Of a DNA stretch of 64,000 nucleotides, positions 43,086 through 64,000 are shown in pieces. The stretch is from contig CANKZJ010000001.1 of the NCBI GenBank assembly GCA_947488605.1, positions 1,019,603-1,083,602 of the forward strand, written 5' to 3'. The notes beneath the pieces are model-generated. The model made no database searches and was not told the DNA's origin. It saw only the letters and a program-made list of their open reading frames with translations. A program made the translations under genes and the position numbers. Within the stretch, counting starts at the first letter, position 1; each line of letters starts with the position of its first letter. The stretch comes from an uncultured Paracoccaceae bacterium. GTDB lineage: Bacteria > Pseudomonadota > Alphaproteobacteria > Rhodobacterales > Rhodobacteraceae.

Positions 43086-44564
43086 ATGCTTGACGAAACA
43101 ACAAACCTCAAATCCATGCTCTCGCGTCCTGATCTGGTCTGCGAAGATGCATTCTTGGCAGGCAAATGGGTACAGGCTGAAAGCGGCAAGACATTTGCGG
43201 TGACCAACCCGGCCCGCGGCGATGTGATTGCCAACGTCCCTGATCTGTCGCGTGCAGAGGTCGCCAAAGCGATCGCAATCGCACAGGTCGCACAAAAATC
43301 TTGGGCCGCCTTGGCCGCAAAACAGCGCGCGAACATCTTGCGCAAGTGGTTTGATCTGATGATGGCGAACCAAGAAGACCTCGCGATCATTATGACTGCC
43401 GAGCAAGGCAAGCCTTTGGCAGAGGCACGCGGTGAAATTGCATATGGTGGGTCGTTCGTTGAGTGGTTCGCAGAAGAAGCAAAGCGGATCTATGGCGAGA
43501 CAATCCCCGGTCATATGGCGGACAAACGCATTACAGTGATCAAGCAGCCTATCGGCGTTGCCGCTGGCATCACACCGTGGAATTTTCCAAACGCCATGAT
43601 CGCCCGCAAAGTTGCTCCGGCCTTTGCTGCGGGCTGCGCATTCATCATCAAACCGTCAGAGCTGACGCCGTTGTCCGCGCTCGCGATGGCAAAACTGGCC
43701 GAAGAAGCCGGTGTTCCCGAGGGGCTATTTTCAGTTGTAACCTCATCTGATGCGTCTGCGATGGGCAAAGAGTTTTGCGAAAACCCCATCGTGCGCAAAC
43801 TGACTTTTACAGGCTCGACCCAAGTAGGTCGTATTCTTCTGGCGCAAGCGGCAGACCAAGTTATGAAATGCTCGATGGAGTTAGGCGGAAATGCGCCTTT
43901 CATCGTCTTTGATGACGCTGATCTGGATGAAGCCGTCATCGGCGCCATCGCCTGCAAATTCCGCAACAATGGCCAAACCTGCGTCTGCGCGAATCGGATT
44001 TACGTGCAATCAGGTGTTTATGACGCGTTTGCCGCGAAGTTTAAGACCGCTGTCGAGGCACTTGCGGTTGGTGACGGGATGTCTGACGGCACCACTCTTG
44101 GTCCGCTGATTGAGCCCAAAGCAGTTGATAAGGTGCAAAGCCATCTTGCAGACGCGCTGTCGAAAGGTGCTGAAATCCTGACCGGCGGCAAACCCCACGA
44201 TCTTGGTGGTCAGTTTTTCGAACCGACCATTGTCACGAAAGCTACCAAAGACATGCTCGTCAGCACTGATGAAACCTTTGGCCCGTTTGCGCCACTCTTT
44301 ATGTTTGAAGACGAAGATGACGTGATCGCACAAGCCAATGACACGATCTTTGGCTTGGCGTCCTATTTCTACGCCAAAGACCTATCGCGCGTCACCAAAG
44401 TCGCCGAAGCGCTGGAATATGGCATCGTTGGTGTGAACACCGGCATCATCTCAACCGAGGTCGCGCCATTTGGTGGGGTCAAACAATCCGGCCTTGGTCG
44501 GGAAGGATCGCACCACGGCATCGAAGACTACCTCGAGATGAAATACATCTGCATGAGTGTATAG
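43086..44564 (+). CDS. gabD: NAD(P)-dependent succinate-semialdehyde dehydrogenase
   Basis: This is a 492-aa aldehyde dehydrogenase. The general-base Glu is in MELGGNAPFIVFDDADLD and the catalytic Cys in NNGQTCVCANR; GSTQVGRIL is the cofactor loop. The full pattern, including PWNFPNAMIARK, fits the GabD group, which oxidises succinate semialdehyde or glutarate semialdehyde. AGGGAGG precedes the ATG. It is the last core gene before the accessory island. The 180 bp after it are AT-rich, with a weak AATAAGG / CCTTATT hairpin at 44577-44611 and no gene. Confidence 0.92.
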   Translation: MLDETTNLKSMLSRPDLVCEDAFLAGKWVQAESGKTFAVTNPARGDVIANVPDLSRAEVAKAIAIAQVAQKSWAALAAKQRANILRKWFDLMMANQEDLAIIMTAEQGKPLAEARGEIAYGGSFVEWFAEEAKRIYGETIPGHMADKRITVIKQPIGVAAGITPWNFPNAMIARKVAPAFAAGCAFIIKPSELTPLSALAMAKLAEEAGVPEGLFSVVTSSDASAMGKEFCENPIVRKLTFTGSTQVGRILLAQAADQVMKCSMELGGNAPFIVFDDADLDEAVIGAIACKFRNNGQTCVCANRIYVQSGVYDAFAAKFKTAVEALAVGDGMSDGTTLGPLIEPKAVDKVQSHLADALSKGAEILTGGKPHDLGGQFFEPTIVTKATKDMLVSTDETFGPFAPLFMFEDEDDVIAQANDTIFGLASYFYAKDLSRVTKVAEALEYGIVGVNTGIISTEVAPFGGVKQSGLGREGSHHGIEDYLEMKYICMSV

Positions 44565-44745
44565 ATTTATCATATAAATAAGGGTTTTTTGATTTTCCGA
44601 ATCTCCTTATTGGAACACTATTGTAACCGCTATTGGGACAAGGATTGAATGTAAGCCCATTTATTCACACGTTGATCCATCCGTTGGCAGAGAAACAACT
44701 CGTCGCCTTTGATGACTGGTGATGGTCCTACCTTCGGCAATCGGT

Positions 44746-45915
44746 TCAACTCAAACTGGCCGACCTCGGGTCGTAGGCCAGCCCCTTGATCGATCCATCC
44801 CTGATTCGTTCGACAGCTTCATCGATTGCGAACACCGGAACGAGGAACCATTCTCTCGGAACTACAGGGTGACCAAACCGATCCTTGATTTCGATATCCA
44901 GACGCGCTCGTTCAAAGATACGGTGAAGCAAATTCTCCAATTTGACCCGATTGATGTTGTAGAGTTCATAGGTTGTGACGATGTCCACGTCGGCCATGAG
45001 GAACGTTGGGTCGAGTTTTGCGTTGGCGATGCGGCGTTCGACCGTACCACCAGTGACACCGATCTTGTGGAGTAGGTCACGATTTTCAGCCACAATCGGA
45101 AGGTCGGACTTACTGCGTAGAACATAGATCGTCCCGCTGGCCTCATCGCCATCAGTCGAGGCATCAGTGAACAATGGGCCAGCATCGGCTTCAGTCACCC
45201 GTCGGCTGGCGTCGTCATCGTTAAGAGCGCGTTGAAGTGACCGCATTAAGAGATTGCTCTCGGTACCATTGTCAAAGATCACACGCAGCCGAGCTTCAGT
45301 CATTCCGTTTTGGTTGACATAAACGTCACCTTTTACGGCGACATATGCTTTCATCCCCTTGAGAACGAAGAACCGCCCGACTTCGATTTCAGACTTCGCC
45401 TCAAATGGTCGAGTTGTTCGTAAACCAGCATCAAGCTCGGCTTGCACCTTTTCGAACAGCGGTTTGAACTTGTCAAAATCCGCGCAGGTTTCGCGGTTGG
45501 CGATCTCCTCTGCTGCCCGCTTCTCTGCGACGGGCCGCACATGCCGAAGCTGGGTGATATCATCCGCTACATCATCCAAATCCTCCAATTCGGCGGCCAA
45601 CGCATCGAGATCGAGTTCATCGTCAGCCTCGGATGCCTCTGTCGCCCCCTGGAGCAGCCCCTGGTGGTCAAGTGGCTTCAGGATGGCCACATAGTCAGCA
45701 GATGCAGCGAGGCGCTCTAGTCGTACCGCGTAGAGCCGCTCAAAGATATCCCGATCCTCGCCATACTGGGGCGGATGCTCTTCACGTTCCGTGAACCGTT
45801 GAATTTCTTCAAAGCCTGCGATCACCCGTTCTTCAATCGGGGAGCGTTTGACTAGCTTCTCCTCGACATCGAACTCAGCAAGATCACCGGCAAGGGCATC
45901 AAGGTCATCACTCAT
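44746..45915 (-). CDS. GIY-YIG nuclease-domain protein of a restriction-like operon
   Basis: This is a 389-aa protein. The start at 45915 was chosen because it overlaps the helicase stop (ATGAGTGA). The N-terminal two thirds are acidic and helical (an Asp/Glu-rich stretch at 95-120). A GIY-YIG-type nuclease domain is near the C-terminus: GTIYVL (Tyr264), KIGVT (284-288), Arg295 and Glu327 match the catalytic positions of the T5orf172-like group. It is the last gene of a seven-gene minus-strand operon. With the helicase it recalls the GIY-YIG plus SF2 motor pair of the CglI restriction enzyme. It probably cuts DNA on command of the motor; this is inference. Confidence 0.82.
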   Translation of the reverse strand: MSDDLDALAGDLAEFDVEEKLVKRSPIEERVIAGFEEIQRFTEREEHPPQYGEDRDIFERLYAVRLERLAASADYVAILKPLDHQGLLQGATEASEADDELDLDALAAELEDLDDVADDITQLRHVRPVAEKRAAEEIANRETCADFDKFKPLFEKVQAELDAGLRTTRPFEAKSEIEVGRFFVLKGMKAYVAVKGDVYVNQNGMTEARLRVIFDNGTESNLLMRSLQRALNDDDASRRVTEADAGPLFTDASTDGDEASGTIYVLRSKSDLPIVAENRDLLHKIGVTGGTVERRIANAKLDPTFLMADVDIVTTYELYNINRVKLENLLHRIFERARLDIEIKDRFGHPVVPREWFLVPVFAIDEAVERIRDGSIKGLAYDPRSASLS

Positions 45916-47956
45916 AACGACCCTCTTTGCGGAACCGCATAAACGCAGTGGCACCCTCGGCCATCAGCTTCTCGTATGGGTCAGTTGCAGTCATCGATGG
46001 TGAGCGTCCATTTTCCTTTTTGAAGCGGCTGGCCCGTTTTGCCCATGTCACGGCGTCTTCTGGGCTAATCTGCGTCCGCTTCGAGGTGATAACGGCTTGC
46101 ACCTGTTTCAATCGTTCTTCATCCATCGACTTCGATAGGATCGAGTATGCCTCGTTGAACGGGTTGATGGCATCAATCAGATCGATATCAAGATCGCGCA
46201 CATCCATGGCGAACTTACGGACCCCGTCGATCAGCGCGGTGTTGGCAGTTGGCTCTCGATCATCATCGTCTTCAAGCACAGCTTTCTTGGCCTGCTGGGT
46301 CAAGTTCATCGCGGCGACAGCACGTTGACGCACAGCCTCAATATCGCCCTCCTCCAATTCAGGATACCGATCTTTGATAATCTTCCCCATGCGCACGACT
46401 GTTAGTTCTTCAGGAACCAATTCCTCATCGAAGAGACCACGTTCAATCACGGGCTTGTCCTGTACGAATGCGGTGATCACTTCATTCAGGTCTTCCTGAC
46501 ATATCCGTTCAGCTTCTTTGGTCTTCGGCTCGGCGAGGCCCTTGATCTCAATCTGAAACTGACCGGTTTCTTCATTGAAGCCGACATTGGTCTTTGTGGG
46601 ATCATACCCGTCTTCGCCATACTCAAATCCCGGCTCCTCTGTGGAAGTGGTTGTTTTCGGCGTGAAGTTAAAACGTGGGGCAAGGACCTGCTCCATCAAC
46701 AGACTCGCGGCAATGGCTTTGAGCGTATCGTTGATCGCTTCGGTCACTGCGCCTTCCGATGCATCGGGTTCAGCTATCAAGTTGGTGAACCGTGAACGGG
46801 TCTTACCAACCGCATCACGTGTGGCACGGCCAATGATCTGGACAATTTCGGTCAGACTGGCACGGTATCCGACAGTCAGGGCGTGTTCGCACCAAATCCA
46901 GTCGAAGCCTTCCTTGGCCATACCAAGCGCGATGATGAGGTCTACATGATCGCGGTTGTTCTTCTGGTTTGGTTCCTTCAATGCAGTGGAAACTCGTTCG
47001 CGTTTGCTGGGATCATCCTCCACCAGATCAGCGATCTTGATTACACGGCCTTCAGCGGTTTTCACTAGATGGAAGCCCGTCGTCGAATCAGTTTCCACAT
47101 ACTCGCCAAGAGCGTCAATGATGTGATCGACCTCTTTGTGCTTGTCGCCGGTACTCTCCCGTGCGTTCACGTTCGGGATGTGCAGGATCGTTTTCTCATT
47201 CGGGTTCAGAACCGACAGCAGTTCATCCGCATATGAACCAGTGTAAAAGAAATACCCGATATCGAGCGTCTTCAGATGCTCGTAACCATTCAACTGCTCG
47301 TAGTAGGTATAGGTGACCGTGTCGAACTTGGACTCATCCTCGGGGGACAGCACAGCCTCTGCATCACCACGGAAATAGCTACCGGTCATGGCAACGACAT
47401 GCACCCGATCACGGGCGATCAACTGGCCCAGATGTGCGCCCAGTTTGTTGTCTGGATTGGCGCTGACGTGGTGGAATTCATCGACGGCGATCAAACGATC
47501 ATCGAAGACCTCAATACCAAACTTATCGACCGCGAACCGAAACGTAGCATGGGTGCAGATTAGGATACGGTCATCGCTTTGGAGGAATTTTCCGACAGAC
47601 CCAACCTTACCATCGTCGCCGCCGGGTACGTTGCAAAGGTTCCACTTTGGAACGACCGTCCAATCGGACCAGAAACCATACTTTGATAGTGATTCGTTAT
47701 TGAAACTCGACCCGATGGATTTCTCCGGCACCACCACAATGGCCTGTTTCAGCCCTTGATTTTCCAACTTGTCCAAAGCGATGAACATCAACGCCCGAGA
47801 TTTACCCGAAGCTGGTGGGGACTTGATCAGCAGGTATTGTTCACCGCGCCGTTCATAGGCCCGCTCTTGCATGGCCCGCATGCCGTATTCGTTCGACGTA
47901 GTGGACGCACCGTTCTGGGCGTAGGTGACGGAGACTGAGGGGATCGGTTTGGTCAT
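45908..47956 (-). CDS. DEAD/DEAH-box SF2 helicase of a restriction-like operon
   Basis: This is a 682-aa superfamily 2 helicase/translocase. Motif I is SPPASGKSR (46-54), motif II DEFHH (159-163), motif III TGSYF (191-195) and motif VI QIIGRATRD (373-381). It resembles the Res subunits of type III restriction enzymes but has no C-terminal nuclease motif that I can find, so cutting is probably done by the partner GIY-YIG or PD-(D/E)xK proteins. The start overlaps the stop of the upstream gene (ATGA), and the stop overlaps the GIY-YIG start, a sign of tight co-translation. Confidence 0.87.
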   Translation of the reverse strand: MTKPIPSVSVTYAQNGASTTSNEYGMRAMQERAYERRGEQYLLIKSPPASGKSRALMFIALDKLENQGLKQAIVVVPEKSIGSSFNNESLSKYGFWSDWTVVPKWNLCNVPGGDDGKVGSVGKFLQSDDRILICTHATFRFAVDKFGIEVFDDRLIAVDEFHHVSANPDNKLGAHLGQLIARDRVHVVAMTGSYFRGDAEAVLSPEDESKFDTVTYTYYEQLNGYEHLKTLDIGYFFYTGSYADELLSVLNPNEKTILHIPNVNARESTGDKHKEVDHIIDALGEYVETDSTTGFHLVKTAEGRVIKIADLVEDDPSKRERVSTALKEPNQKNNRDHVDLIIALGMAKEGFDWIWCEHALTVGYRASLTEIVQIIGRATRDAVGKTRSRFTNLIAEPDASEGAVTEAINDTLKAIAASLLMEQVLAPRFNFTPKTTTSTEEPGFEYGEDGYDPTKTNVGFNEETGQFQIEIKGLAEPKTKEAERICQEDLNEVITAFVQDKPVIERGLFDEELVPEELTVVRMGKIIKDRYPELEEGDIEAVRQRAVAAMNLTQQAKKAVLEDDDDREPTANTALIDGVRKFAMDVRDLDIDLIDAINPFNEAYSILSKSMDEERLKQVQAVITSKRTQISPEDAVTWAKRASRFKKENGRSPSMTATDPYEKLMAEGATAFMRFRKEGRYE

Positions 47957-48420
47957 ACGTCGTCCTCGGACTTGGCTAGTGGGGGAATTTCAAATGGGGC
48001 CAGTATCTTCGTGGCCCACGCAGGGACGCTTGGCCATGAATAGCTGCGGTGTTCGCTCCATGATTTGGATTTGTTGATCTTGTCAGCTTCACTGATCAAG
48101 ACACCCACATGGTCGTGAGGGTAAACGTAGCAACGTTCATTCTTACGATCAAAGAAGGCGATATAAAGACCCTTTTTCTCGTACTTCTTATTCAGCGTCA
48201 GTCGACCCTTGAGTTGAACGCGATAGAAGTCTTTTCCATTATGGTGGTAGGCGATAAAGTCTGCGCCCTGCCAATCGTCTGACAATAAAAGACTGTTGTA
48301 GCCGTAATCGGCAAGCCGCGCTGCAATCTTGTGGAAATTGTAGGTTTCCTTCTGTCGGGCGTTCATTGCCGCATACGCGGTGGGTGCAAGCACCAAAGGT
48401 TCACTATGCTGCTCAGACAT
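47953..48420 (-). CDS. PD-(D/E)xK-like nuclease or DNA-binding protein
   Basis: This is a 155-aa protein starting at ATG 48420 (GCGGA upstream; an upstream start at 48462 is possible). The segment GADFIAYHHNGKDFYRVQLK has the order Asp54, then Gln69-x-Lys71 on a strand, after a long N-terminal helix with Glu25. This fits a small PD-(D/E)xK fold with Q in place of D/E, as in some restriction and intron endonucleases. No named family is certain. The stop overlaps the helicase start. It could be a second nuclease or a recognition subunit. Confidence 0.6.
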   Translation of the reverse strand: MSEQHSEPLVLAPTAYAAMNARQKETYNFHKIAARLADYGYNSLLLSDDWQGADFIAYHHNGKDFYRVQLKGRLTLNKKYEKKGLYIAFFDRKNERCYVYPHDHVGVLISEADKINKSKSWSEHRSYSWPSVPAWATKILAPFEIPPLAKSEDDV

Positions 48421-48525
48421 TGATAAATCCGCATGGCTCGGATGCCAGCAGTCCTCTTGCACTCGATTTCGTAGGCTTACCCTTCTTAGGACATCTGAAG
48501 GTGGCTGAGCGGATTGCGCGACTCA

Positions 48526-48735
48526 TCAATTTGCCTTCGCGTCGAAGTGGTCAACAAAGGCTGCAATCGAACCATACTCTTGCTTAATCCTGGGTGCGGC
48601 CTGATGCATGAATTGCTGGCCATCCTCCAAAGTCCATCGGTGGTGTGCGAACATCACCCGATAGCTACCGTTGAAATGAGCCTTCGCGATACGTGATATC
48701 GCCTTGGCATCCCAGCCCGGTTGTTTTTCTCTCAT
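48526..48735 (-). CDS. Small protein (69 aa) coupled to the zinc-ribbon gene
   Basis: The start codon overlaps the upstream stop (TGATG), so it is likely translated by reinitiation. The protein is rich in His and aromatic residues (YRVMFAHHRWTLEDGQQFMH) and ends in a helix (SIAAFVDHFDAKAN). I recognise no family. Its place inside the operon suggests a small accessory subunit or regulator of the restriction-like system. Confidence 0.6.
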   Translation of the reverse strand: MREKQPGWDAKAISRIAKAHFNGSYRVMFAHHRWTLEDGQQFMHQAAPRIKQEYGSIAAFVDHFDAKAN

Positions 48736-49226
48736 CAGTGCTTGGGTCCCCGCTTTGGCGTGTCGAGCCTATGGCCGTTCAGCATTTTGCGTTGCTCCTT
48801 GGTCAGCATCGCGGCCTTCTTCTTTTTTGCCTCGTACCGTGCCGTCGCTTTGCGGAAAGCACTGACATCCATCACAACACCTTCGGCTTTTGATTGCATG
48901 TTCTTCTTTAAAACAGGCTCACCGTCCGTGATCAGAACGCCCTGCATCTTTTCCGCGAACGCCGGACAGCCATGTTTGGGCCAAGGCGCTCCCAGATCAT
49001 CAAAAAACACCTTACTTCCAGCATCGTTGCGATAAAAAAAGACTCTCTTGCCACAGCCCCAACAATTCATCTGATAGGTTTGTTGGCCGTTCACATGTGC
49101 ATTGCCATGCCGCCACGATAGCCTTTGTGAGTGAGAGGCATCGCCCGGAGCGAAATCATGTTCGCGTACCTTGGTCGTTCTTCCAGATGACAGCTTTCTT
49201 GTATGTGCGCTTCTCTTCGATGTCAT
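48735..49226 (-). CDS. Zinc-ribbon protein of the restriction-like operon
   Basis: This is a 163-aa basic protein. A zinc-ribbon pattern is seen: CWGCGKRVFFYRND (Cys55, Cys58) and WPKHGC (His85, Cys87), with KVFFDDLGAPW between. The N- and C-termini are Lys/Arg-rich, which fits nucleic-acid binding. The start overlaps the methyltransferase stop (ATGA). The function is unknown; a role in DNA recognition is plausible. Confidence 0.65.
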   Translation of the reverse strand: MTSKRSAHTRKLSSGRTTKVREHDFAPGDASHSQRLSWRHGNAHVNGQQTYQMNCWGCGKRVFFYRNDAGSKVFFDDLGAPWPKHGCPAFAEKMQGVLITDGEPVLKKNMQSKAEGVVMDVSAFRKATARYEAKKKKAAMLTKEQRKMLNGHRLDTPKRGPKH

Positions 49227-51982
49227 TGCTTCGGCACCTCTCGGGTCATCTTCGTGTACATCTCAAAGAGCTTCTCCAGCCGCTCGGTGTCGTTGCGGAA
49301 GCGTCTGCCGATGTAGATGCGTTCCAGCACTTCGTCGTTGCGGTCGTGGGCGGCGCGGAGGTTTTCGGGCATGGCGTCGGGTTTGTAGAGGTCGGCGATG
49401 GTCGCGGGGAAATGCGCCTCGCGGGCCAGCAGGATATCCTCTGCACAGCGGGTCAGGTCGGACTTGTTTTTTTCGGTGAGCTTGGGGACGGGGAAAGTGT
49501 TCCAGCCGAGGGTGTTGGAGTAGCGGAAATCGGTCTTCAGTTTGCCACAGACGGTAGCGATCCATACGAGGTGGATGCGGGAAGCTATTAGAGCCATATT
49601 CCAAAGTGGGGCGTCGTAGAGGGCAAACGTACTATCCGTAACAATGGATTGTTCTGGTAGAAAACCGCATGGCAAGTAATTTCGAGTTTCGGAAGATACC
49701 CTTGGTACTGCGATTACCAACTCTCCACCAATCTGCCTTAGTTCGTCAAAACGATGTGGGTTACTTGCTCCAGCGCGAGTAGCTTCTTTCGAGCTTGCGA
49801 GACGCATCTCCCGTACCGCTTCAATTCGGGCCAACACTGATGGGATCATTTCTGCTTCTTCAGCGTGCTCGTCAGTTATCCAGAGGCAATAGCGCTGAAT
49901 ACCCCGAATAAATTCGGCAGAACCAAACACTGGTCTTATGTAGGCATCCCGTTGATCGTGACTGAGTCCCAGTTCTTCAACTTCACTCGACGTTAAGAGA
50001 AGGTTTCCTCCGTCGGTTGGCTTGCTTCCGTAGTCCATTTCGGCGGTCTTACTGATTGGTTTTTGCGCCTTAACAACGACTATGCTTTGTCCACCAACAA
50101 GGTACGCATTTAGGTTCTGGACTTCATGCACAAACACCTCACCGCTATCACCAACCGAGAACAGTTTCTTTTCGCGACCTTTCACATTGGTGATCGCAAC
50201 AATCGCCACGGTCACGCCCGCATTGTGGCTGGCAAGGTTCGCCCATTTGAAGGACGTGTGAGCAAAGGTGATCTCATGTCCATCTCTGAAGATCGAAGGC
50301 CAGAGGATGGGAACCTGCTGCCCTTGGCAAATTGAGTTGGTGGTTACAAAAGCGCTGACAGTCGGCGTGTGTAGTGCGTAGTCCGCTGCCTTCATAAACC
50401 ACCCCGCAACGTAGTCCAGCGACTTCCAGCCCTTCACCCGACCGTCAAAGATACGGCCAAGGTCTTCTTTCTGTTCCGTCGATTGCCACGTTGACCCCAA
50501 ATACGGCGGGTTCCCACAAATATAGGTCTCACCACCCTCATTCTCGAAATCAATCGCGGCTTGTTCTAGTGGTGTATCGAAAAGATCATCCGAGGTCAGC
50601 TTGACCGCTTTACCGGTAGGCGGACAGACATCCAGCCAGTCCAGCCGCAGAGCGTTGCCTTGAGTGATCCAGTTCTGCGCATCCAATGGCAGGAAGGTGT
50701 CCCGTGCCACCTTGGGGCCACGGTACAGCACGTCACACTGATACTCAGCGATGATCAGGGCCAGACGGGCGATCTCGGCTGAGAAATCCCGCAGTTCGAT
50801 CCCACGGAAGTTCTGGATGCTAATGTCCGACGCCCGGTCCGCCTCTCCCCGTCGTTTGTTGATCTTGGCCTCGATCTCTCGCATCTGTTTGTAGGCGATG
50901 ACGAGGAAGTTGCCCGACCCGCAGGCCGGATCGAAGACACGGATGTTGGACATCCGTTTGCGCAGGTTGATCAGCTTTTGTGGGCTGTCACCGGCGCGGT
51001 CCAGATGGTCGTTCAGGTCATCGAGGAACAGCGGGTTCAGCACCTTCAAGATATTCGGCACCGAGGTGTAGTGCATACCCAGTTTCGAGCGTTCCTCATC
51101 ATCGGCCACGGCTTGGATCATCGACCCGAAGATATCAGGGTTGATCCGCTGCCAGTTCAGGTTGCCGATCTTGATAAGGTACCGTTGCGCGATGAGCGAG
51201 AAGCGCGGCACCTCTGTGCTGCCCGAGAACAGGCCGCCGTTCACGTACGGGAAGGCATCGGCCCAGCGGGGCAGGTCTGCGGTGGCACGATCCTTGATCG
51301 GTGTGTTCATCGCACGGAAGAGTTCGCTGATCACCTCATGCGTGTTGGACCCATCACGGTTGGCCATCGTTTCGACTGTTGCGGTGAAGAGGTCATCACC
51401 AGCTAGGATGTCGGTATCCTCGGCAAAGAAAAGAAAGATCAGACGGGCCATGAAGTGGTTCATCTCATGGCGGCGTTCAGGGGTACCCCATTCGGGGTTG
51501 TCGGATCGTAGCGTGACGTAGAGCTTATTCAGCCGCAGCGTGGCCCGTACGTCGAACTCGGACTCGCTGAGTTGCTTTGTTTTGCTGAGGCCAGCCAGTG
51601 GCCAGAAGAAGACGAAGTGGTTCGGGAAGTCGTCGTATTTACAAGAGACGATATCACCAGAGACGAGGTCTTCGGCTTCGAAATGCTCACCATCAGTGGC
51701 CAGTACAAACCGGACCTTGTTGCGTTTGGTCTGGGTCGCCTTACTGTCCTTCAGCGCGGTCAGCGTTTCTGGAACGAGGCCCACATCGCAGGTTTTGATA
51801 TGGATGTTCCCAACCTGAAGAACCCCATCGATGTCAGATTTGTTCGACGTACCTTTGCGCAGCTTCTTGGACCGCGCATCGCTGTTGTCGAAGCACTCCA
51901 AGAACGCGAACGGGAACTCGGCAGCGTCATATGGCTGGTCGGCCAACTCACTGATGGCCTGTTCGATTTCAACTGCGTTCAA
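49223..51982 (-). CDS. MmeI-like N6-adenine DNA methyltransferase, nuclease motif degenerate
   Basis: This 919-aa protein has the layout of MmeI-type (type IIG/IIL) restriction-modification proteins: an N-terminal nuclease-like domain (1-130), a helical spacer, a gamma-class methyltransferase core and a C-terminal target-recognition region. The SAM motif DPACGSGNF is at 351-359 and the catalytic NPPY at 491-494. In the N-terminal domain Asp50/Asp52 and Lys63 are present, but the expected D/E/Q before the lysine is His61 (IHIK), so cutting by this domain is doubtful. It lies 3 bp after the HTH gene. The role is probably to protect host DNA while separate subunits restrict. Confidence 0.85.
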   Translation of the reverse strand: MNAVEIEQAISELADQPYDAAEFPFAFLECFDNSDARSKKLRKGTSNKSDIDGVLQVGNIHIKTCDVGLVPETLTALKDSKATQTKRNKVRFVLATDGEHFEAEDLVSGDIVSCKYDDFPNHFVFFWPLAGLSKTKQLSESEFDVRATLRLNKLYVTLRSDNPEWGTPERRHEMNHFMARLIFLFFAEDTDILAGDDLFTATVETMANRDGSNTHEVISELFRAMNTPIKDRATADLPRWADAFPYVNGGLFSGSTEVPRFSLIAQRYLIKIGNLNWQRINPDIFGSMIQAVADDEERSKLGMHYTSVPNILKVLNPLFLDDLNDHLDRAGDSPQKLINLRKRMSNIRVFDPACGSGNFLVIAYKQMREIEAKINKRRGEADRASDISIQNFRGIELRDFSAEIARLALIIAEYQCDVLYRGPKVARDTFLPLDAQNWITQGNALRLDWLDVCPPTGKAVKLTSDDLFDTPLEQAAIDFENEGGETYICGNPPYLGSTWQSTEQKEDLGRIFDGRVKGWKSLDYVAGWFMKAADYALHTPTVSAFVTTNSICQGQQVPILWPSIFRDGHEITFAHTSFKWANLASHNAGVTVAIVAITNVKGREKKLFSVGDSGEVFVHEVQNLNAYLVGGQSIVVVKAQKPISKTAEMDYGSKPTDGGNLLLTSSEVEELGLSHDQRDAYIRPVFGSAEFIRGIQRYCLWITDEHAEEAEMIPSVLARIEAVREMRLASSKEATRAGASNPHRFDELRQIGGELVIAVPRVSSETRNYLPCGFLPEQSIVTDSTFALYDAPLWNMALIASRIHLVWIATVCGKLKTDFRYSNTLGWNTFPVPKLTEKNKSDLTRCAEDILLAREAHFPATIADLYKPDAMPENLRAAHDRNDEVLERIYIGRRFRNDTERLEKLFEMYTKMTREVPKQ

Positions 51983-51985
51983 GGT

Positions 51986-52405
51986 TTATTTCCTAAAGAT
52001 CAGTTCGATCAGCCGCCGGTGGCGTGACGGGTCGAATTCTTGCTTAGGGTGATTGAAAACATACTCGATTTCGGTCTGGTAGACCTCAGCTACTGCATCC
52101 GCGACTTTCTCGGGAGAGGGGCGCACATCGAGATTGGCGATGGTATGCTCGATCTCGGTAACGACCTGCTTCAACCGGTCCATGTCCAGCCGGTGCGGTA
52201 GCCTCACGATGGAACCCTCCAGAAGCGCACCAGCCGATACGTCAAATATCTTGGCCAAATCGCTAAGCCGTTCGGTAGTAACTGCCGACAGACCCGCCTC
52301 CAGACGAGAATATGACGCTGGCGTAATTTCCAAAGCACCGGCGACCTGCGCCTGTGACATGCCGACCTGTTGGCGGGCCTCTTTGATCTTCCCATGTAAC
52401 GACAC
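51986..52405 (-). CDS. HTH (Cro/CI-type) regulator, likely controller of the restriction-like operon
   Basis: This is a 139-aa protein starting at GTG 52405, with GAGG 7 bp upstream. The N-terminal helix-turn-helix is clear (ARQQVGMSQAQVAGALEI, residues 10-27, then PASYSRLEAG). The C-terminal half is helical and unassigned. As the first gene before the methyltransferase it resembles C proteins of restriction-modification systems, which time methylase and nuclease expression. An operator-like palindrome lies directly upstream. Confidence 0.85.
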   Translation of the reverse strand: MSLHGKIKEARQQVGMSQAQVAGALEITPASYSRLEAGLSAVTTERLSDLAKIFDVSAGALLEGSIVRLPHRLDMDRLKQVVTEIEHTIANLDVRPSPEKVADAVAEVYQTEIEYVFNHPKQEFDPSRHRRLIELIFRK

Positions 52406-52521: not shown

Positions 52522-52797
52522 ATGCAACTCAATGATTTCCTCACAAAAAACGGATTGACCATGGCGGCGTTCGGGAGCCGCGTGGGCACCTCTGCTGCCA
52601 CCATAAGTCGCGTAGCCAATAATACGGTGACAGCGAGAATGTCTTTGGTGAAGCGTATCTACGAGGAAACAGGCGGACAGGTGACCCCAAACGATTTGGC
52701 GGGTCTGTATTGTAAGACCCCTTGCCACGTCCGCAAATCGGATATCGACGGACGTTGGCAAGAGATCAATGAAAGTGACACGTTCGATGAGCAATGA
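52522..52797 (+). CDS. Small HTH regulator (Cro-like), divergent from the restriction-like operon
   Basis: This is a 91-aa protein with a helix-turn-helix (LTMAAFGSRVGTSAATISRV, about residues 12-31). There is no Shine-Dalgarno before the ATG; a TAATAC box at 52511-52516 would place transcription start close to the ATG, so the mRNA may be leaderless (inference). It could control its own operon and the neighbouring divergent operon. The end overlaps the next gene. Confidence 0.78.
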   Translation: MQLNDFLTKNGLTMAAFGSRVGTSAATISRVANNTVTARMSLVKRIYEETGGQVTPNDLAGLYCKTPCHVRKSDIDGRWQEINESDTFDEQ

Positions 52798-53271: not shown

Positions 53272-54438
53272 ATGATCAGGATGATCGTGATGGCGGGCGT
53301 TCTTGCTCTATCAGGATGCATGGACACAGTATCGGGCGTCTCCGGTGTCAGCCGTGCTGAGAAGCCGACATACTTCATCGCCGACCAACTTGGTCCAAGC
53401 TGCACCCGTGACAATCGTGGCGGCAGCGCAAGTGTCGAATTAGCCGATAGGGCGTTGACCGCATTGCGAGTGAATAGCGAACGGTACATTGCGGATCTGC
53501 AGCAATCGACGTCTATGACCGTGAAGTTCGATGACTTCAGGTTGCACTGGCAGCCGGTCCTGTTCAACAGCTACGCCGCCGCTGCGTCCAACGATGTCGA
53601 ATTAGCACGGACAATTATTGATGGTCTCAAGCAGATGGCCGTGGCCGGAAGCTACACGAATGAACCGAGCTTGATCACCCGCCAACAAGCAATTCAAATG
53701 ACCGACTGCTATTCGAGTGGCCCGAACTCACCCTGCGCACAATTTACCCCGTTGTTCGTGGCACGGATGTACGCGCTCTTGATGATCTCGACCGCTGTCC
53801 TTGATGTCTACGTCACCGATGAGGATCGGGACGTGCTGATCCCTTGGTTCGATCAAGCCTATCAGCGCTTCGTCAGAGACGCCGTAGAGATGGACCAGGA
53901 AGGCATCTATGATTTGGGCAACATGGGGATGGCCCGTCTCGCATATGCCGCGTTAAAGAATGATATGCGGCTGGCAGATCGCGAGTTTCATAAACGGCGG
54001 GCCGAATTTATCAACCGGATAGAACCATCCGGATACATTGATCGGAATTCGTACCGTGGCGTACGCGGTTTTTGGTATCATACATATGGGCTGGATGTAG
54101 CCTTGTCCTACGCTCTCGTCGCACGTGCGTGGGGATATGACTTTTTTGCTGATGAAACCCTCGGACCGCGTCTTCGAGCCGCCGTAGATAAGACCACACT
54201 GGGTATCAACGATCTTCGCGCATTCCGTTCAGTTGGTAACCGAGGCGACAACATCACAACCAATCCCGCCGATGCGAAGCCGCATGTCTTCCAACTATCC
54301 TTGAACCTCTACCAGATTTCTGAACGCGAATTCGGTGTCCGACTTCCACCGGACCGTCGATACCAAGAGATCGCCCGGTTCGAACAGTACCCAGCGATCT
54401 CGGGGATGGCAGCGAGTTGCTATTACAGCGGGCGATGA
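53272..54438 (+). CDS. Alginate-lyase-like (PL5/alpha-alpha toroid) lipoprotein
   Basis: This is a 388-aa protein with a lipoprotein signal (lipobox LSGC, Cys16). The segment YRGVRGFWYHTYGLD (261-275) resembles the RGxxALxYHNYAL motif of PL5 alginate lyases, including the catalytic Tyr region. The helical repeat pattern of the rest fits an (alpha/alpha) toroid. The conserved NNH motif that carries the catalytic His appears as GNMGMARLAY (216-225), with no His. It may be a divergent lyase or a binding protein for uronate polymers. It is part of a short plus-strand run with the preceding small genes. Confidence 0.6.
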   Translation: MIRMIVMAGVLALSGCMDTVSGVSGVSRAEKPTYFIADQLGPSCTRDNRGGSASVELADRALTALRVNSERYIADLQQSTSMTVKFDDFRLHWQPVLFNSYAAAASNDVELARTIIDGLKQMAVAGSYTNEPSLITRQQAIQMTDCYSSGPNSPCAQFTPLFVARMYALLMISTAVLDVYVTDEDRDVLIPWFDQAYQRFVRDAVEMDQEGIYDLGNMGMARLAYAALKNDMRLADREFHKRRAEFINRIEPSGYIDRNSYRGVRGFWYHTYGLDVALSYALVARAWGYDFFADETLGPRLRAAVDKTTLGINDLRAFRSVGNRGDNITTNPADAKPHVFQLSLNLYQISEREFGVRLPPDRRYQEIARFEQYPAISGMAASCYYSGR

Positions 54439-54687: not shown

Positions 54688-54795
54688 TCCAACTCGATTG
54701 TTGAGTTATCAGTACAGGTGGTTCGACCCGTCAGGAACCTTCTCCCTGCGCAGCCCCTTTCGGCCAAATACGGTGGCAAAGAAAGGGAACCTACC

Positions 54796-55155
54796 ATGCT
54801 TTATTCAATCCACACCGCCGATCTCGCTTCATCAATGCCAAGGATGCTTCCACTTCCATTGGTCACCGGCATCCTCCACCTTCAAGCTGGTATGCCACTG
54901 GAAGACGATGTCGCAGATTTCATTAATAGGAATGGAGGGAATGCAATGTCAGCGAATCACCGATGGTACATGGAGATTATGGACATGGGTGTAGGTGGTC
55001 ACATCGCTGCACAGGGGTCTTTCATCCGAGATGATGGGCAGATGGTCACAGAGGCGATGGTGGTCGATCCAGACTACGCTGGGGCGAACATAGGTCCGTA
55101 CCTGCAAGGCTTGGCTGAGCGGCTGTTTGGGTTGGGAAATAATTCTACAATTTGA
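54796..55155 (+). CDS. Hypothetical protein (119 aa)
   Basis: The start at 54796 (MLYSIHTADLASSMPRML) is preceded by AAAGGGAACC. The C-terminal part MVTEAMVVDPDYAGANIGPY recalls the acetyl-CoA region of GNAT-like folds, but this is weak and no motif is decisive. It ends before a 10-bp inverted repeat and converges on the ribbon-helix-helix-like gene. Confidence 0.5.
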   Translation: MLYSIHTADLASSMPRMLPLPLVTGILHLQAGMPLEDDVADFINRNGGNAMSANHRWYMEIMDMGVGGHIAAQGSFIRDDGQMVTEAMVVDPDYAGANIGPYLQGLAERLFGLGNNSTI

Positions 55156-55193
55156 CTTGAATTGGTGAACCGATCCGCCAACGTTTAACGGTA

Positions 55194-55270
55194 CCCGATC
55201 CTAGCATGCCCTAGTCAAGATGCCGCTCCGCTATTGTGTCGTTGTGAAAGCGTCGAGCCATAGGATCGGG
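55194..55270. repeat. Inverted repeat with 57-bp loop between convergent genes
   Basis: CCCGATCCTA (55194-55203) and TAGGATCGGG (55261-55270) are perfect inverted copies. The structure lies between the 119-aa gene (plus) and the small minus-strand gene. It could be a bidirectional terminator or the remnant of a small mobile element. Confidence 0.45.
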
Positions 55271-55276
55271 ACCCTA

Positions 55277-55456
55277 CTACACACTCGCCGGTTCTCTTAG
55301 ATCATGCCCGTCATCGATGTACGCGTTCCATAGCGCCTCCACGCTGTCATCCAGCAGTGCACCATAAGGCAGTCTGCTGTAGACCTTCAGCGCCCTTAGT
55401 CGATCCTGTGTGCGGCTCGACACTGATCTGACAGACAGTTTTACGTCATTACTCAT
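55277..55456 (-). CDS. Ribbon-helix-helix-like small protein (59 aa)
   Basis: A strong ribosome binding site GAGGAGG lies 8 bp before ATG 55456. The N-terminus VKLSVRSVSSRTQDRLRALK has the strand-then-helix pattern of CopG/ParD-type ribbon-helix-helix proteins, followed by a second helix LPYGALLDDSVEALWNAYI. Such proteins are DNA-binding antitoxins or plasmid copy-control repressors. It is divergent from the probable HUH initiator gene (229 bp apart), an arrangement that suggests regulation. No toxin gene is seen beside it. Confidence 0.65.
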   Translation of the reverse strand: MSNDVKLSVRSVSSRTQDRLRALKVYSRLPYGALLDDSVEALWNAYIDDGHDLREPASV

Positions 55457-55684
55457 CTTCGTTTCCTCCTCTTGGTATTTACCGTTTGGACGAAAAACTG
55501 GCCATAACTACAGGTGTTGAAGGTCTGCGCCTACATATGAGTACGTCGCACACTGGTCGGACACATGACCGCCTGCGCGTCATGTTCAAAATAACACCCG
55601 AGGCCCGCTTCTTTGACGTACCCGACGAAAAATACCTTTGCTCACAATCGGATGGAATTCACGCCGATGCAGAAGGACAATCGG

Positions 55685-56842
55685 ATGCTGAGCCTTGAGT
55701 GGAACATTCGCAATATGCGGCTGTCACAGCATCCCAAGGGTTCAGCGGCATGGATCAAAAGTGCGACCTCCTCGGCCTTGGCACTCGGGCATCCAGAGCT
55801 TGAGGACATACCCATCGTCAGAGGGAAACCCGCGTTTCTAGCCAATGCTGGCAACCCAATACGCAAGGCATGGAGCAAATCCGAACGGATTAATTTCAAG
55901 CGGATCAACCACGGCTACGGAAAGCGCTTTTCAAAGCGTGTTGTGCGGACAATGCGGCTTCTAGAAGACTGCCCCATACAGAACATTGGCTTTATCACGC
56001 CGGTGGTCGCCTACGCGACCACGAAAGAGGAAGCCTATGCACTCGCTCGTTCAGCCGGTACAAAGCTGAGCAGGTTCATTCGAAACCGGTTTCCCCACGC
56101 GATTTGGCTTCTCTTCCCAGAAGTGGATCAGGTGACCGTTGGCAGTGTTGCAGATAACATCTTAGTTGATCGTGGCTGGAAGCAGGGCCTTTCGGACAAA
56201 ACCTTGGTTTACAAGGTTCACTTCCACGGACCAATTTACGTACCGGGCTTGGACGCTCAGGCAATTGAGGCAGGGTTTCGTTGCTATCGTTCAGGCAAGC
56301 GTGTCAGTCACTACTGTGGCGTCAACCAAGTGCGTGTTTTACCGATACGTCCTGATCCTGATCAAACAGGCTCTCGTCCCGACATTGTGGGTGTGTCAGG
56401 TTATTCAACCAAGAAGCATTATCGTCCGGCTTGTGTTGCTCGAATGTTAGAGGGCTATGCCGAATGGATGTGGTTGACGCATCAGATCGCATCAGACGAA
56501 AGCCTTGTGCAGATTGGTGGTGTGATATCCGGCATACATGAATACTGCGCGGCTTGTGATCACTACTACACAAGAGGTGACGATTGTCGATGTGAGCCTG
56601 TAGTCGGACCAGATGACTCTATTGGGTTTGATAATGTCATCAATTCCTTCAAAGGTTCATCACCTGACAGTATCGTTAACATCAGTGATCAGACTGGGTT
56701 CCTCTCATCTTTAAACTCGGTCGGCTCAAGCATCTGGAATTCCTACAAGAAAAAGCCAACCGTGGAAAAAGTTACTTCCCGTATATTCAACGGTGTTTCG
56801 ACGCTCTGGTGGTGGATGCAAAACCATATTCGCGGTCCATAG
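55685..56842 (+). CDS. Probable HUH-endonuclease replication initiator (Rep-like)
   Basis: This is a 385-aa protein starting at ATG 55685, with AAGGA 8 bp upstream. Three motifs in the right order suggest a rolling-circle Rep fold: IGFITPVVAY (101-110), the HUH motif YKVHFHG (His179, His181) and a Tyr-x-x-Lys motif YSTKK (Tyr240, Lys243). A cysteine cluster (Cys288, Cys291, Cys301, Cys303) may bind zinc. A hairpin terminator follows. It is probably a remnant of an integrated plasmid or phage. A transposase or relaxase of the same fold is an alternative. Motif reading only. Confidence 0.55.
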   Translation: MLSLEWNIRNMRLSQHPKGSAAWIKSATSSALALGHPELEDIPIVRGKPAFLANAGNPIRKAWSKSERINFKRINHGYGKRFSKRVVRTMRLLEDCPIQNIGFITPVVAYATTKEEAYALARSAGTKLSRFIRNRFPHAIWLLFPEVDQVTVGSVADNILVDRGWKQGLSDKTLVYKVHFHGPIYVPGLDAQAIEAGFRCYRSGKRVSHYCGVNQVRVLPIRPDPDQTGSRPDIVGVSGYSTKKHYRPACVARMLEGYAEWMWLTHQIASDESLVQIGGVISGIHEYCAACDHYYTRGDDCRCEPVVGPDDSIGFDNVINSFKGSSPDSIVNISDQTGFLSSLNSVGSSIWNSYKKKPTVEKVTSRIFNGVSTLWWWMQNHIRGP

Positions 56843-60217: not shown

Positions 60218-60850
60218 TTGACAACCATATTCTATGCAAGAGTTTCAACGCGGGACCAAACACTCGATCACCAGATCGTGCAGGCTAGGGCAGCGGGTTT
60301 TGAGATCGATCAGGTGGTCGCCGACCACGGTGTATCCGGCGTCAAGCACAGGCTGGATGAACGTCCAGAGGGGCGCAGGCTCTACGATAAACTTCGGAAC
60401 GGTGATACACTTGTACTGCGATGGTTGGATCGCCTAGGGCGTAACTACGATGACGTGACCGATGCGGTGCGGCATTTCATCCGACAGGGTGTGATCATAC
60501 GAACGGTGATCAACGATATGACGTTTGATGGTTCAACCACTGACCCCGTCCAACAGGCCGTCAGAGACGCAATGATCGCGTTTCTCGCAGCCACTGCACA
60601 GGCGCAGGCTGAGGCGACAAAGGTCGCACAGCGGGCTGGAATCGAGCTTGCAAAGGAAAAGGGAGATCGGTTTCGAGGGCGTAAACCGTCATATGATCGC
60701 AAGACATTTGATGAAGCCGTGAATCTACTGGGGCTTGGTAACGGACCAAGTACGGTCTCAAAGGAGACAGGGCTATCCCGCCAAACTTTGATCCGAATCC
60801 GAGATGACCCAGCCGCTGCTGCTGCGGCAATGGATCGATGGGGACTTTAG
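60218..60850 (+). CDS. Serine recombinase (resolvase/invertase family)
   Basis: This is a 210-aa small serine recombinase. It starts at TTG 60218, with AAGGGGA 4-5 bp upstream. The catalytic Ser10 is in FYARVSTRDQTLDHQ. The domain continues with VVADHGVSGVKHR, LRWLDRLGRN and the long E helix. The C-terminal helix-turn-helix is GPSTVSKETGLSRQTLIRI. It could resolve or invert DNA of a transposon, plasmid or island. No Tn3-type transposase is seen in the window. Confidence 0.92.
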   Translation: MTTIFYARVSTRDQTLDHQIVQARAAGFEIDQVVADHGVSGVKHRLDERPEGRRLYDKLRNGDTLVLRWLDRLGRNYDDVTDAVRHFIRQGVIIRTVINDMTFDGSTTDPVQQAVRDAMIAFLAATAQAQAEATKVAQRAGIELAKEKGDRFRGRKPSYDRKTFDEAVNLLGLGNGPSTVSKETGLSRQTLIRIRDDPAAAAAAMDRWGL

Positions 60851-60967: not shown

Positions 60968-61654
60968 ATGCCTGATCAACAAGAAGTGCCAGAGACCGCA
61001 ATTATCCGCGGCTGCACGGTATACGCCACACCAGTCGCGAGACGTGAGAAGCTGAAATCTTTAGGTATACCTGAGCAACTTCTTATTGATGCAGTGCAGT
61101 ATGGCGTCGCCGAGAAGTTGACCCAGGTGGTTTACGATCCAGCTACGTCCGGTGGTATAGACCTTTACCGATACACCACGAGAGAAGTTCGTCGCGGACT
61201 TCACGAACTTGGGTGGGAACTGAGCGACAGCAACAATATCGCGCTAGTGCGAAACCCTATAAACGACACGACTGTTATCGTGTGCAGTGGGGATCAGCAA
61301 ACGGGTCAATTGATCGGTGATCTGCCGAAGACAAAACGCTCGAAGGGTGAGGTGTTCTTGGAAGTTACCGAAGTTCAATCCGTTGATCTATTCGGAAATG
61401 AGGAAGTCACCACACGGCTTGTTGCTGTACCAGACAAAGAGGTCTGGCTGCTGCTTCACTACCACTTGGATTGCAAAGACGGACAAACTCTACGTGCGGA
61501 ATTGTCTCGACCATTAGAGGCTGAGGACGGGATAATCACGAAATGGAGTGAGAGGATTATCTTGCACATACCACTTCCTGATGCGATGCCGGACGACGAT
61601 TCTGGCACCGACACCGGGCCTGTTGTCATTCCAAATGTGAAGATTAGGATTTGA
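60968..61654 (+). CDS. Unknown protein paired with an XRE-ImmA/IrrE protein
   Basis: This is a 228-aa protein with GGAGAG before the ATG. It has no motif that I recognise. It has a mixed charged N-terminal half and a strand-rich C-terminal half (EVWLLLHYHLDCKDGQTLRA) ending in an acidic linker. The next gene starts 1 bp after its stop, so they are a tight pair. Pairs of an unknown protein with an ImmA/IrrE-type protein are often toxin-antitoxin or phage-defence modules; this is inference. Confidence 0.65.
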   Translation: MPDQQEVPETAIIRGCTVYATPVARREKLKSLGIPEQLLIDAVQYGVAEKLTQVVYDPATSGGIDLYRYTTREVRRGLHELGWELSDSNNIALVRNPINDTTVIVCSGDQQTGQLIGDLPKTKRSKGEVFLEVTEVQSVDLFGNEEVTTRLVAVPDKEVWLLLHYHLDCKDGQTLRAELSRPLEAEDGIITKWSERIILHIPLPDAMPDDDSGTDTGPVVIPNVKIRI

Positions 61655-61655
61655 A

Positions 61656-62729
61656 ATGAATGGAAGTAGGTTGTCCGTTGCTAGAAAGCGGAAGGGCTTA
61701 ACAAGGCCACAGCTTGCTGAGAAACTCGGGGTAACTTCACGCACCATTAATGGTTGGGAAACCGGTGCAGAAGTGCCTGAAGAGCGGATTGATTCGTTGG
61801 TCAGGGAGTTGGGGTTTTCGCGTGGTTTCCTTGGACTAGCCGACCCGGCAAGTGTCTCCACCAATGCTGTTAGCTTCCGCTCCCTTAGCAGGAAATCCGC
61901 AACCCAGCGTGACGCTGCGTTGGCGATGTGTGACATGGCAGTCGATTTGTCTGAGTGGATTGATCCTCGGTTTGGGCGCAATGATGTCGCGATAGCCGAT
62001 CTGTCAGAGGAAGCGCCCGATTTTGCCGCCGATCTATTGCGGAGAGATTGGGGCCTCGGGCATGCGCCACTCTCCAATTTGATCCATCTACTTGAAGCAA
62101 AGGGCGTCAGGCTATTTGGGCTTCCTGACAACTGTCGTGAGATTGATGCATGCTCTTTTTGGCTCGATGACATCCCGTACGTGCTTGTGGATACAACGCG
62201 ATCAGCAGAACGCATACGCTTCAATCTGGCCCACGAACTCGGGCATTTGGTTCTTCATCGTCACGGTGCACCAGTTGGGCAGACCGCCGAAAAGGAAGCA
62301 AACTTATTTGCGTCGAATTTCCTGATGACAACTTCAAGCCTTCACCAGCACCTGCCAAGACAAATGTCAGTAGGGGCCTTGGTTAAGTTGAAGAGAAAAT
62401 GGGGCGTTTCGGCCATGGCGCTGGCCTACCGATTGAATAAGATTGGACGGCTTAGTGATTGGCATTACAAGACGATGATTATCGAGATGCGGAGACGGAA
62501 GTACCACGAGGTTGAGCCGGAACCCATTCCACACGAACAGTCCTATGTTCTGGATGTCGTGTTGCGCACCTTGGTCTCACGGGATATTTCACTCCGCTCG
62601 ATAGCCGACGATACCAACCTGCCGCTGTCAGAGATCGTCGGATTGATGCAAGGCTTGGCGACTTTGGCAATCTCTGAACATGACATGGCCACCCCCACTG
62701 AAAGAAGGGCTGAGCTACGATTAGTGTGA
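61656..62729 (+). CDS. XRE-family regulator fused to ImmA/IrrE metallopeptidase
   Basis: This is a 357-aa protein of the COG2856 type. The N-terminal helix-turn-helix (LTRPQLAEKLGVTSRTINGW, about residues 15-34) is followed by a zinc peptidase domain with HELGH (in NLAHELGHLVLHRHG, near residue 195) and the third ligand region EKEANLFASNFLM. Such proteins cleave repressors or partner proteins in mobile-element control, toxin-antitoxin and defence systems. The upstream 228-aa protein is the likely partner or substrate. Confidence 0.88.
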   Translation: MNGSRLSVARKRKGLTRPQLAEKLGVTSRTINGWETGAEVPEERIDSLVRELGFSRGFLGLADPASVSTNAVSFRSLSRKSATQRDAALAMCDMAVDLSEWIDPRFGRNDVAIADLSEEAPDFAADLLRRDWGLGHAPLSNLIHLLEAKGVRLFGLPDNCREIDACSFWLDDIPYVLVDTTRSAERIRFNLAHELGHLVLHRHGAPVGQTAEKEANLFASNFLMTTSSLHQHLPRQMSVGALVKLKRKWGVSAMALAYRLNKIGRLSDWHYKTMIIEMRRRKYHEVEPEPIPHEQSYVLDVVLRTLVSRDISLRSIADDTNLPLSEIVGLMQGLATLAISEHDMATPTERRAELRLV

Positions 62730-63037: not shown

Positions 63038-64000
63038 TTATGCGGCGTGTTTGCGGTGATGCAAGCGTCGCGCTTCGAGTGTCTTTCGTTTGATCCTTTC
63101 GCGTTGTTGCAGAATGGCTTTGTCACGCCCAAAGTAGACGTCAGCTGGTGTGACGTTGTTGATACTCTCGTGATAGCGCTGGTGATTGTAGTGGTCGACG
63201 AAGGCTGCGATCTGGGCTTCAAGATCACCGGGCAGGAAGTAGTTTTCTAGCAAGATGCGGTTCTTGAGTGTTTGGTGCCAGCGTTCGATCTTGCCTTGGG
63301 TTTGCGGGCGATACGGCGCACCGCGCGAGTGCTTCATGCCTTTGTCGTGCAGCCATTCCGCCAGGTCCCCAGAGACATAGCTTGAACCGTTGTCACTGAG
63401 CAGGCGCGGCTTGTGAACGACATGCACCTGATCACAGCCAGACGCCTGCAATGCGAGGTCCAGCGTATCCGTCACGTCCGCCGCGCGCATGTTTGTGCAG
63501 AGTTTCCAGGAGACGATGTAGCGGCTGTAGTCGTCGAGAACCGTGCTGAGGTAAAACCAGCCCCATCCCATCACCTTGATATAGGTGAAGTCAGTTTGCC
63601 AAAGCTGGTTGATGGCCGTCGTCTTGTGCTGGAACTCATTCGCTGCCTTGAGCACAATGAAGGCGGGACTGGTGATCAGATCATGGGCCTTCAGCACACG
63701 GTACACCGTAGATTCCGAGACAAAGTAGCGTTTCTGATCCGTGAACGTCACTGCCAATTCGCGCGGCGACAGCTCTGTTTCCTGCAAGGCGAGGTCGACA
63801 ACCTTGCGCTTCACCTCGTCAGGAACACGATTCCAGACGTGCTTCGGCTTGGGAGATAGATCCTGCAATCCAGCCTCACCGCGTTGCAGATAACGATCAT
63901 ACCAACGGTAGAATGTCGTCCGTGGGATACCCAGTTTGGCCAATGTCCGACGCGCCGACAGATGGCTTTCCTCGACCAGCCGGATGATCTCAAGCTTCTC
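63038..64000 (-). mobile_element. DDE (rve) transposase of an insertion sequence, IS3/IS481 kind, 5' end outside window
   Basis: The minus-strand frame is open from the window edge, so the gene starts beyond it. The N-terminal part is a helix-turn-helix (EKLEIIRLVEESHLSARRT, then LAKLGIPRTTFYRWYDRY). The integrase core shows DFTYIK (first Asp), LLSDNGSSYVS (second Asp) and YRPQTQGKIERWHQT (Glu), i.e. DDE. It ends HHRKHAA. The visible part is 320 aa. The right terminal inverted repeat is not in the window, so IS boundaries cannot be set; one end should lie near 63000-63035. Confidence 0.88.

Follow-up and report, generated by a model that had tools for sequence, protein, structure and literature searches.

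The gene pair at 55277-56842 of the window (the entire stretch of 64,000 nucleotides analyzed here) raises the question of whether a small ribbon-helix-helix (RHH)-like protein and a divergently encoded protein with the signature of an HUH replication protein (Rep) are leftovers of a plasmid or phage or a functional part of something larger. Rather than a decayed plasmid scrap, the pair forms the conserved core of mobile chromosomal islands that make up a rare family in marine bacteria. The islands insert at the ends of genes and bear phage defense genes; after excision, their DNA is probably nicked and copied, or handed over, by the Rep-like enzyme. The movement of defense islands is largely obscure because many of them lack a recognizable transfer gene. 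The family described here is delimited and consists of small islands with an integrase in each and defense cargo in nearly all, and the only DNA-processing candidate common to them is the unannotated protein with the HUH signature. If this protein nicks and copies the island, it would provide a handle to find and test such elements in marine bacteria and would add to the continuum of Reps and relaxases a sequence family missed by present profile libraries.

The divergent gene pair

The pair and its motifs are located as follows.
55277..55456, minus strand: RHH-like protein of 59 aa, encoded divergently to the Rep-like gene and preceded by a strong ribosome site
55531..55537, plus strand: CTACATA between the two genes, candidate nick site or operator/promoter element
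55613..56842, plus strand: Rep-like protein with HUH signature, 409 aa from TTG 55613 or 385 aa from ATG 55685
56219..56227, plus strand: motif II (HUH), codons H179-F180-H181, unchanged in each of the six copies, the truncated one among them
56402..56413, plus strand: motif III, codons Y240-x-x-K243, invariant in all five full-length copies

The Rep-like frame is present where the preliminary description placed it; it lies on the plus strand, ends at 56842, and reads 385 aa from ATG 55685. This length is probably too short: the frame is open from TTG 55613, the probable start of a 409-aa product. The longer form is likelier because the residues before ATG 55685 (TYPTKNTFAHN...) align with the N termini of the homologues, two of which are exactly 409 aa long. 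With the TTG start, the intergenic region shrinks to about 55457-55612. Residue numbers given here count from ATG 55685.

Four other Rhodobacteraceae genomes contain homologues of the Rep-like protein, at five loci in total: Y. litorea, whose copy shows 44 to 46% identity with that of the window; G166, which holds two copies (G166a and G166b); G462, of the same genus as the window genome; and G436. The reported motifs FITPVV, HFH, and YSTKK are all present in that order, which is the order of Rep-type (Y1) HUH proteins: a hydrophobic motif I, an HxH motif II, and a motif III with a tyrosine (YxxK). It matches the Rep-type HUH nuclease motifs described in PMC5714925. The core alignment has 195 columns without gaps, and 59 positions are invariant across the five full-length copies, whose identity goes down to about 30%. 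Conservation in these copies indicates that the motifs exceed chance: H179 and H181 are the only invariant histidines among the 12 of the protein, and E146 (on the strand preceding HFH), Y240, and K243 are invariant as well. Only 2 of the 14 tyrosines are invariant, Y185 and Y240, so that the three residues singled out earlier for a conservation check, Tyr240, His179, and His181, all pass unchanged through the family. Given the constraint on its motif residues, the Rep-like protein is likely an HUH nicking enzyme, in which E146 may be the third metal ligand. The evidence does not support the term remnant used previously: the frame remains intact, with constraint on the catalytic positions; the copy in G436, which ends after HFH at 244 aa, is the sole truncated one of the six. 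A C4 zinc cluster as a family feature is rejected on five-copy conservation, with only one cysteine being invariant and the G462 copy lacking most of them.

Searches of the Rep-like protein against Pfam, PHROGs, and NCBIfam models return no matches, so membership in the known Rep families is rejected, and a PDB sequence search is likewise negative. Profile comparison supports neither homology to phiX174 gpA, with which the HFH stretch alone aligned, nor homology to E. coli YfjJ. A search of 72,556 plasmids and 50,697 phages found no Rep similar to this protein, and neither this protein nor the RHH-like one has a match in phage or viral collections. A plasmid or phage origin by homology is rejected for lack of matches in plasmids, phages, and viral contigs.

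The predicted fold of the Rep-like protein is compatible with HUH without establishing it. The AlphaFold model of the full protein has a mean pLDDT of 52, with core residues 91-200 at about 68 to 84. The core modeled with six sequences reaches 75.6 and forms a beta-alpha-beta-beta arrangement with HFH on a strand; this part, much of the first half, is at about 90, compared to less than 50 around YxxK, so that the region of Tyr240 is poorly modeled. In a Foldseek search of a viral library, the top match of the full model is an unnamed protein (E of 2.7e-3, probability of 0.99), and several proteins named replication-associated or initiator rank below it. Nothing in the PDB matches at an E of ≤0.001; the full model comes closest to a parvovirus HUH nuclease (E of 0.087, probability of 0.14), and the core model finds only general ferredoxin-like folds.

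The 59-aa minus-strand frame at 55277-55456 and its strong ribosome binding site are present as first described. Its RHH assignment derives only from a residue pattern, (I/V)RS(I/V)S-helix-G-DD.(V/I)E.LW, and no RHH (CopG/Arc) profile or solved structure in Pfam or PDB matches the protein. The protein is nevertheless conserved, with homologues at the five other loci that are 44 to 75% identical to the window copy. The gene is divergent from the Rep-like gene at all six loci. The pairwise identities of the Rep-like and RHH-like proteins correlate across the six loci (r of 0.68, Mantel P of 0.06), and those of the resolvase and integrase do not follow this correlation, which indicates that the pair travels together while the remainder is reassorted or exchanged. 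About 115 bp 3' of the RHH-like gene (55155-55270) shows 71.5% identity with the same place in G166a, contains no apparent gene, and is common to the window and G166a only.

The proposed search for an origin between the two genes yields one candidate, CTACATA, which lies 77, 78, and 79 nt from the RHH start codon in the window, Y. litorea, and G166a, respectively. About 4% of shuffles share any 7-mer when position is disregarded. The candidate could serve as a nick site, operator, or promoter and is confined to one subgroup; the other subgroup has a CACTA-containing motif in its place. A conserved hairpin origin is rejected, as hairpins are found in each intergenic region yet out of register.

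An integrative element inserted at an aldehyde dehydrogenase 3' end

The window covers the last part of contig C1, which stops at window base 64000; the genome measures 3.87 Mb and belongs to the genus of Yoonia litorea DSM 29433. The features of the element in the window besides the pair are as follows.
44540..44553, plus strand: left attachment core, GAAATACATCTGCA, at the aldehyde dehydrogenase (ALDH) gene 3' end; synteny stops here
44608..44639, plus strand: three TAT(T/C)G(G/T)(A/G)AC repeats, probable integrase arm-type sites, with three matches at C18 1219-1261
44746..48462, minus strand: three cargo genes in synteny with element G166a, two of which encode a GIY-YIG/T5orf172 protein and a DEAD/ResIII helicase
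49223..51982, minus strand: cargo, MmeI-like type IIG restriction-modification (R-M) enzyme (Pfam MmeI domains; PADLOC REase_MTase_IIG, 2e-290)
51986..52405, minus strand: XRE-family regulator (RstR/DicA-like HTH), probable element repressor (Pfam HTH_3, 1e-14), with homologues in four other elements
52522..52797, plus strand: small HTH protein divergent from the XRE regulator, with weak HTH matches and homologues in three other elements
54718..55155, plus strand: conserved 145-aa protein upstream of the pair; the Yoonia litorea element has a homologue at 46% identity
57009..57461, plus strand: conserved 123- to 154-aa protein, core gene of the element family, with homologues in three other elements and no family match
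60218..60850, plus strand: serine resolvase/invertase (Pfam Resolvase, 1e-25)
60968..62729, plus strand: cargo, RmrT-RmrA defense pair adjoining the serine resolvase (PADLOC, 8e-42 and 8e-121)
63038..63943, minus strand: insertion sequence transposase at the contig end (Pfam rve, 1e-27)

The ALDH gene at 43086-44564 is matched in 41 of 41 Yoonia genomes searched, and chromosomal similarity (synteny) stops near 44553-44565. In the window genome, the genes that follow ALDH elsewhere lie on another contig, C18, from base 1543 onward. C18 begins with a tyrosine integrase (Pfam), followed by a second ALDH 3' end with the core GAAATACATCTGCA at 1381-1394, and both ends of the element bear the three repeats. 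The duplicated ALDH 3' end, the matching arm repeats, and the integrase at the other end identify the window element as integrative, and an insertion that was ambiguous from the left boundary alone is settled by the location of the right end on C18. The pair of the window thus sits in an integrative element at the ALDH 3' end of a Yoonia genome, with an integrase at one end and a flanking target site duplication. The element extends over at least 19.4 kb in the window and 1.4 kb on C18 (at least 21 kb in total), and the insertion sequence at the contig end probably caused the assembly break between C1 and C18 within it. The integrated replicon or new Rep family proposed at the outset comes close to this evidence, which is for an unannotated Rep-like family in a delimited integrative element.

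Related elements and their defense cargo

The gene pair is conserved across six related elements, of which the five outside the window have the following insertion sites, sizes, and cargo.
Y. litorea element: tRNA-Tyr; 24-bp direct repeat; 13.07 kb; NgoMIV-type R-M, DndB-like, HNH
G166a element: tRNA-Ala; 23-bp direct repeat; 23.5 kb; MmeI-like, DarT/macrodomain pair
G166b element: tRNA-Cys; 20-bp direct repeat; 19.7 kb; HsdM, GmrSD
G462 element: tRNA-Arg; 12-bp match only, far end uncertain; about 15 kb; type I R-M
G436 element: same ALDH 3' end at both ends; roughly 9.5 kb; integrase 49% identical to that of the window element

In three genomes (G016, G011, and G029), tRNA-Tyr directly adjoins the right-flank gene of the Y. 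litorea element, which represents the empty site. The ends and the integrase of the window island and, for the Y. litorea relative, this empty site identify the island as an integrative element. A 34-bp repeat was considered as the attachment site of the G436 element and rejected; it is made of arm repeats, and the ALDH 3' end provides the actual core. The truncated Rep-like gene of G436 (L018/L005) overlaps a resolvase 58% identical to that of the window, as if fused by deletion.

The family is rare, with 5 genomes (the window genome included) in about 1,670 genome scans, a number in which certain genomes are counted more than once and certain scans were made with other queries. None lies outside the Rhodobacteraceae, and Rep-like homologues are absent from the remaining sampled Rhodobacteraceae and the other sampled families of the class.

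R-M genes are found in five of the six elements; none was identified in G436 among the cargo genes scanned, which are part of its cargo. A resolvase is present in every element, with differing lineages. No conjugation, packaging, or virion gene is recognized among the element genes scanned, the scan covering part of the genes of G166a, G166b, G462, and G436. The region 44746-51982 of the window (GIY-YIG, DEAD helicase, small genes, and MmeI-like enzyme) is largely syntenic with G166a, with about 80% DNA identity over 44766-48420, which suggests a transferable defense cassette; no strong PADLOC model matched its helicase and GIY-YIG part. The window also encodes, at 53272-54438, a lipoprotein-like protein with an alginate-lyase-type domain (Pfam, 3e-07) that is 86% identical in G166a. 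An XRE-methyltransferase forms one 493-aa frame in G166a and two overlapping frames in Y. litorea (L003 9885-11350), a split that reflects a frameshift or sequencing error.

Proposed copying, possible transfer, and alternative roles of the pair

The pair is interpreted with moderate confidence as a replication or processing module. In it, the Rep-like protein would act as an HUH initiator whose nick sets off rolling-circle copying of the island after excision, and it may also serve as a relaxase. Here, the integrase would excise the island as a circle, followed by nicking of one strand by the Rep-like protein with Tyr240 at the origin, for which CTACATA at 55531 is the candidate. The metal for nicking would be held by H179, H181, and E146, and the nick would start rolling-circle copying with the host helicase and polymerase. 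The divergent RHH-like protein would bind the shared intergenic region and repress the Rep-like gene and its own gene, keeping the island quiet while integrated, and the XRE pair farther upstream probably controls excision. The lack of sequence similarity to any known HUH family speaks against this interpretation, as do the unspecific PDB matches, the poorly modeled Tyr240 region, the restriction of CTACATA to one subgroup, and the size of the elements, which at 13 to 23 kb are large for rolling-circle replicons; larger integrative examples are discussed in PMC5714925.

The analogy to CopG/Rep plasmids that was drawn in the preliminary description is weak. The pair resembles pMV158-type CopG/RepB replicons in that a small RHH protein adjoins an HUH initiator. 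In the rolling-circle plasmid pMV158, copG and repB are codirectional and form one operon, in contrast to the divergent genes of the six loci here; the element is also far larger, and no sequence similarity to plasmid or phage Reps is found.

A relaxase role, alone or additional, is the main rival. In this rather unlikely reading, the Rep-like protein would be a noncanonical relaxase that nicks an oriT and leads the island strand into the conjugation system of another element, as in an integrative mobilizable element (IME). The RHH-like protein would then assist in the relaxosome, a role common among RHH proteins, and the complete 13-kb Yoonia litorea element contains no other relaxase that could be found. 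In many IMEs and ICEs of Firmicutes, Rep-type HUH proteins provide the relaxase, often in addition to their role in replication (PMC5704250, PMC5714925), but the published examples are Gram positive, no oriT was identified, and the element genes scanned include no coupling protein or conjugation gene. One close comparison is with the streptococcal IMEs, which have rolling-circle-type relaxases (MobT/Rep_Trans, Rep_2, PHA00330, and Viral_Rep) and share with the islands an integrase, insertion at gene or tRNA 3' ends, a Rep-type nicking protein, and, in certain ones, R-M cargo (PMC5704250). Unlike these, the islands described here are alphaproteobacterial, their Rep is nonhomologous by sequence, no coupling protein is found, and the RHH-like gene is divergent.

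It is improbable that the islands are phage satellites, amplified by the Rep-like protein after helper phage infection and carried off in helper particles. Their size (9.5 to 23.5 kb), integrase, divergent regulators, and defense cargo resemble those of satellites (PICI and P4-like), which often bear defense systems (PMC11389934). In contrast to satellites, no primase-helicase is recognized in the islands, Pfam searches of the scanned element genes give no match for a capsid, terminase, or packaging gene, and the pair is without counterparts in phage or viral collections. The cryptic prophage CP4-57 of E. coli K-12 is similar as an integrase island with an AlpA-type regulator and defense genes, but its YfjJ, which we take to be Rep-like, lacks profile similarity to the family described here.

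The assignment of the protein as a single-strand-specific nuclease or Y1-type transposase, acting for example in defense or element excision rather than as a replication initiator, is very improbable. The spacing of about 60 residues between HUH and the tyrosine falls within the range of Y1 transposases, and the fold assignment is unspecific; however, YxxK replaces the transposase-type motif, and each genome has one or two copies, each in an island with its own integrase. Least credible of all is a DNA-binding protein of another kind with coincidental motifs, which would fit the lack of homology and of a specific fold match but not the strict conservation of exactly the motif residues.

A broader form of the rolling-circle interpretation can be proposed only tentatively: a new family of HUH initiators may define a new class of Gram-negative integrative elements that, controlled by a divergent RHH repressor, undergo rolling-circle copying once excised and carry R-M and other defense genes from one member of the Rhodobacteraceae to another, with the same enzyme as initiator and relaxase. 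The Rep-like family itself is new by sequence, and the kind of system to which it belongs is already known.
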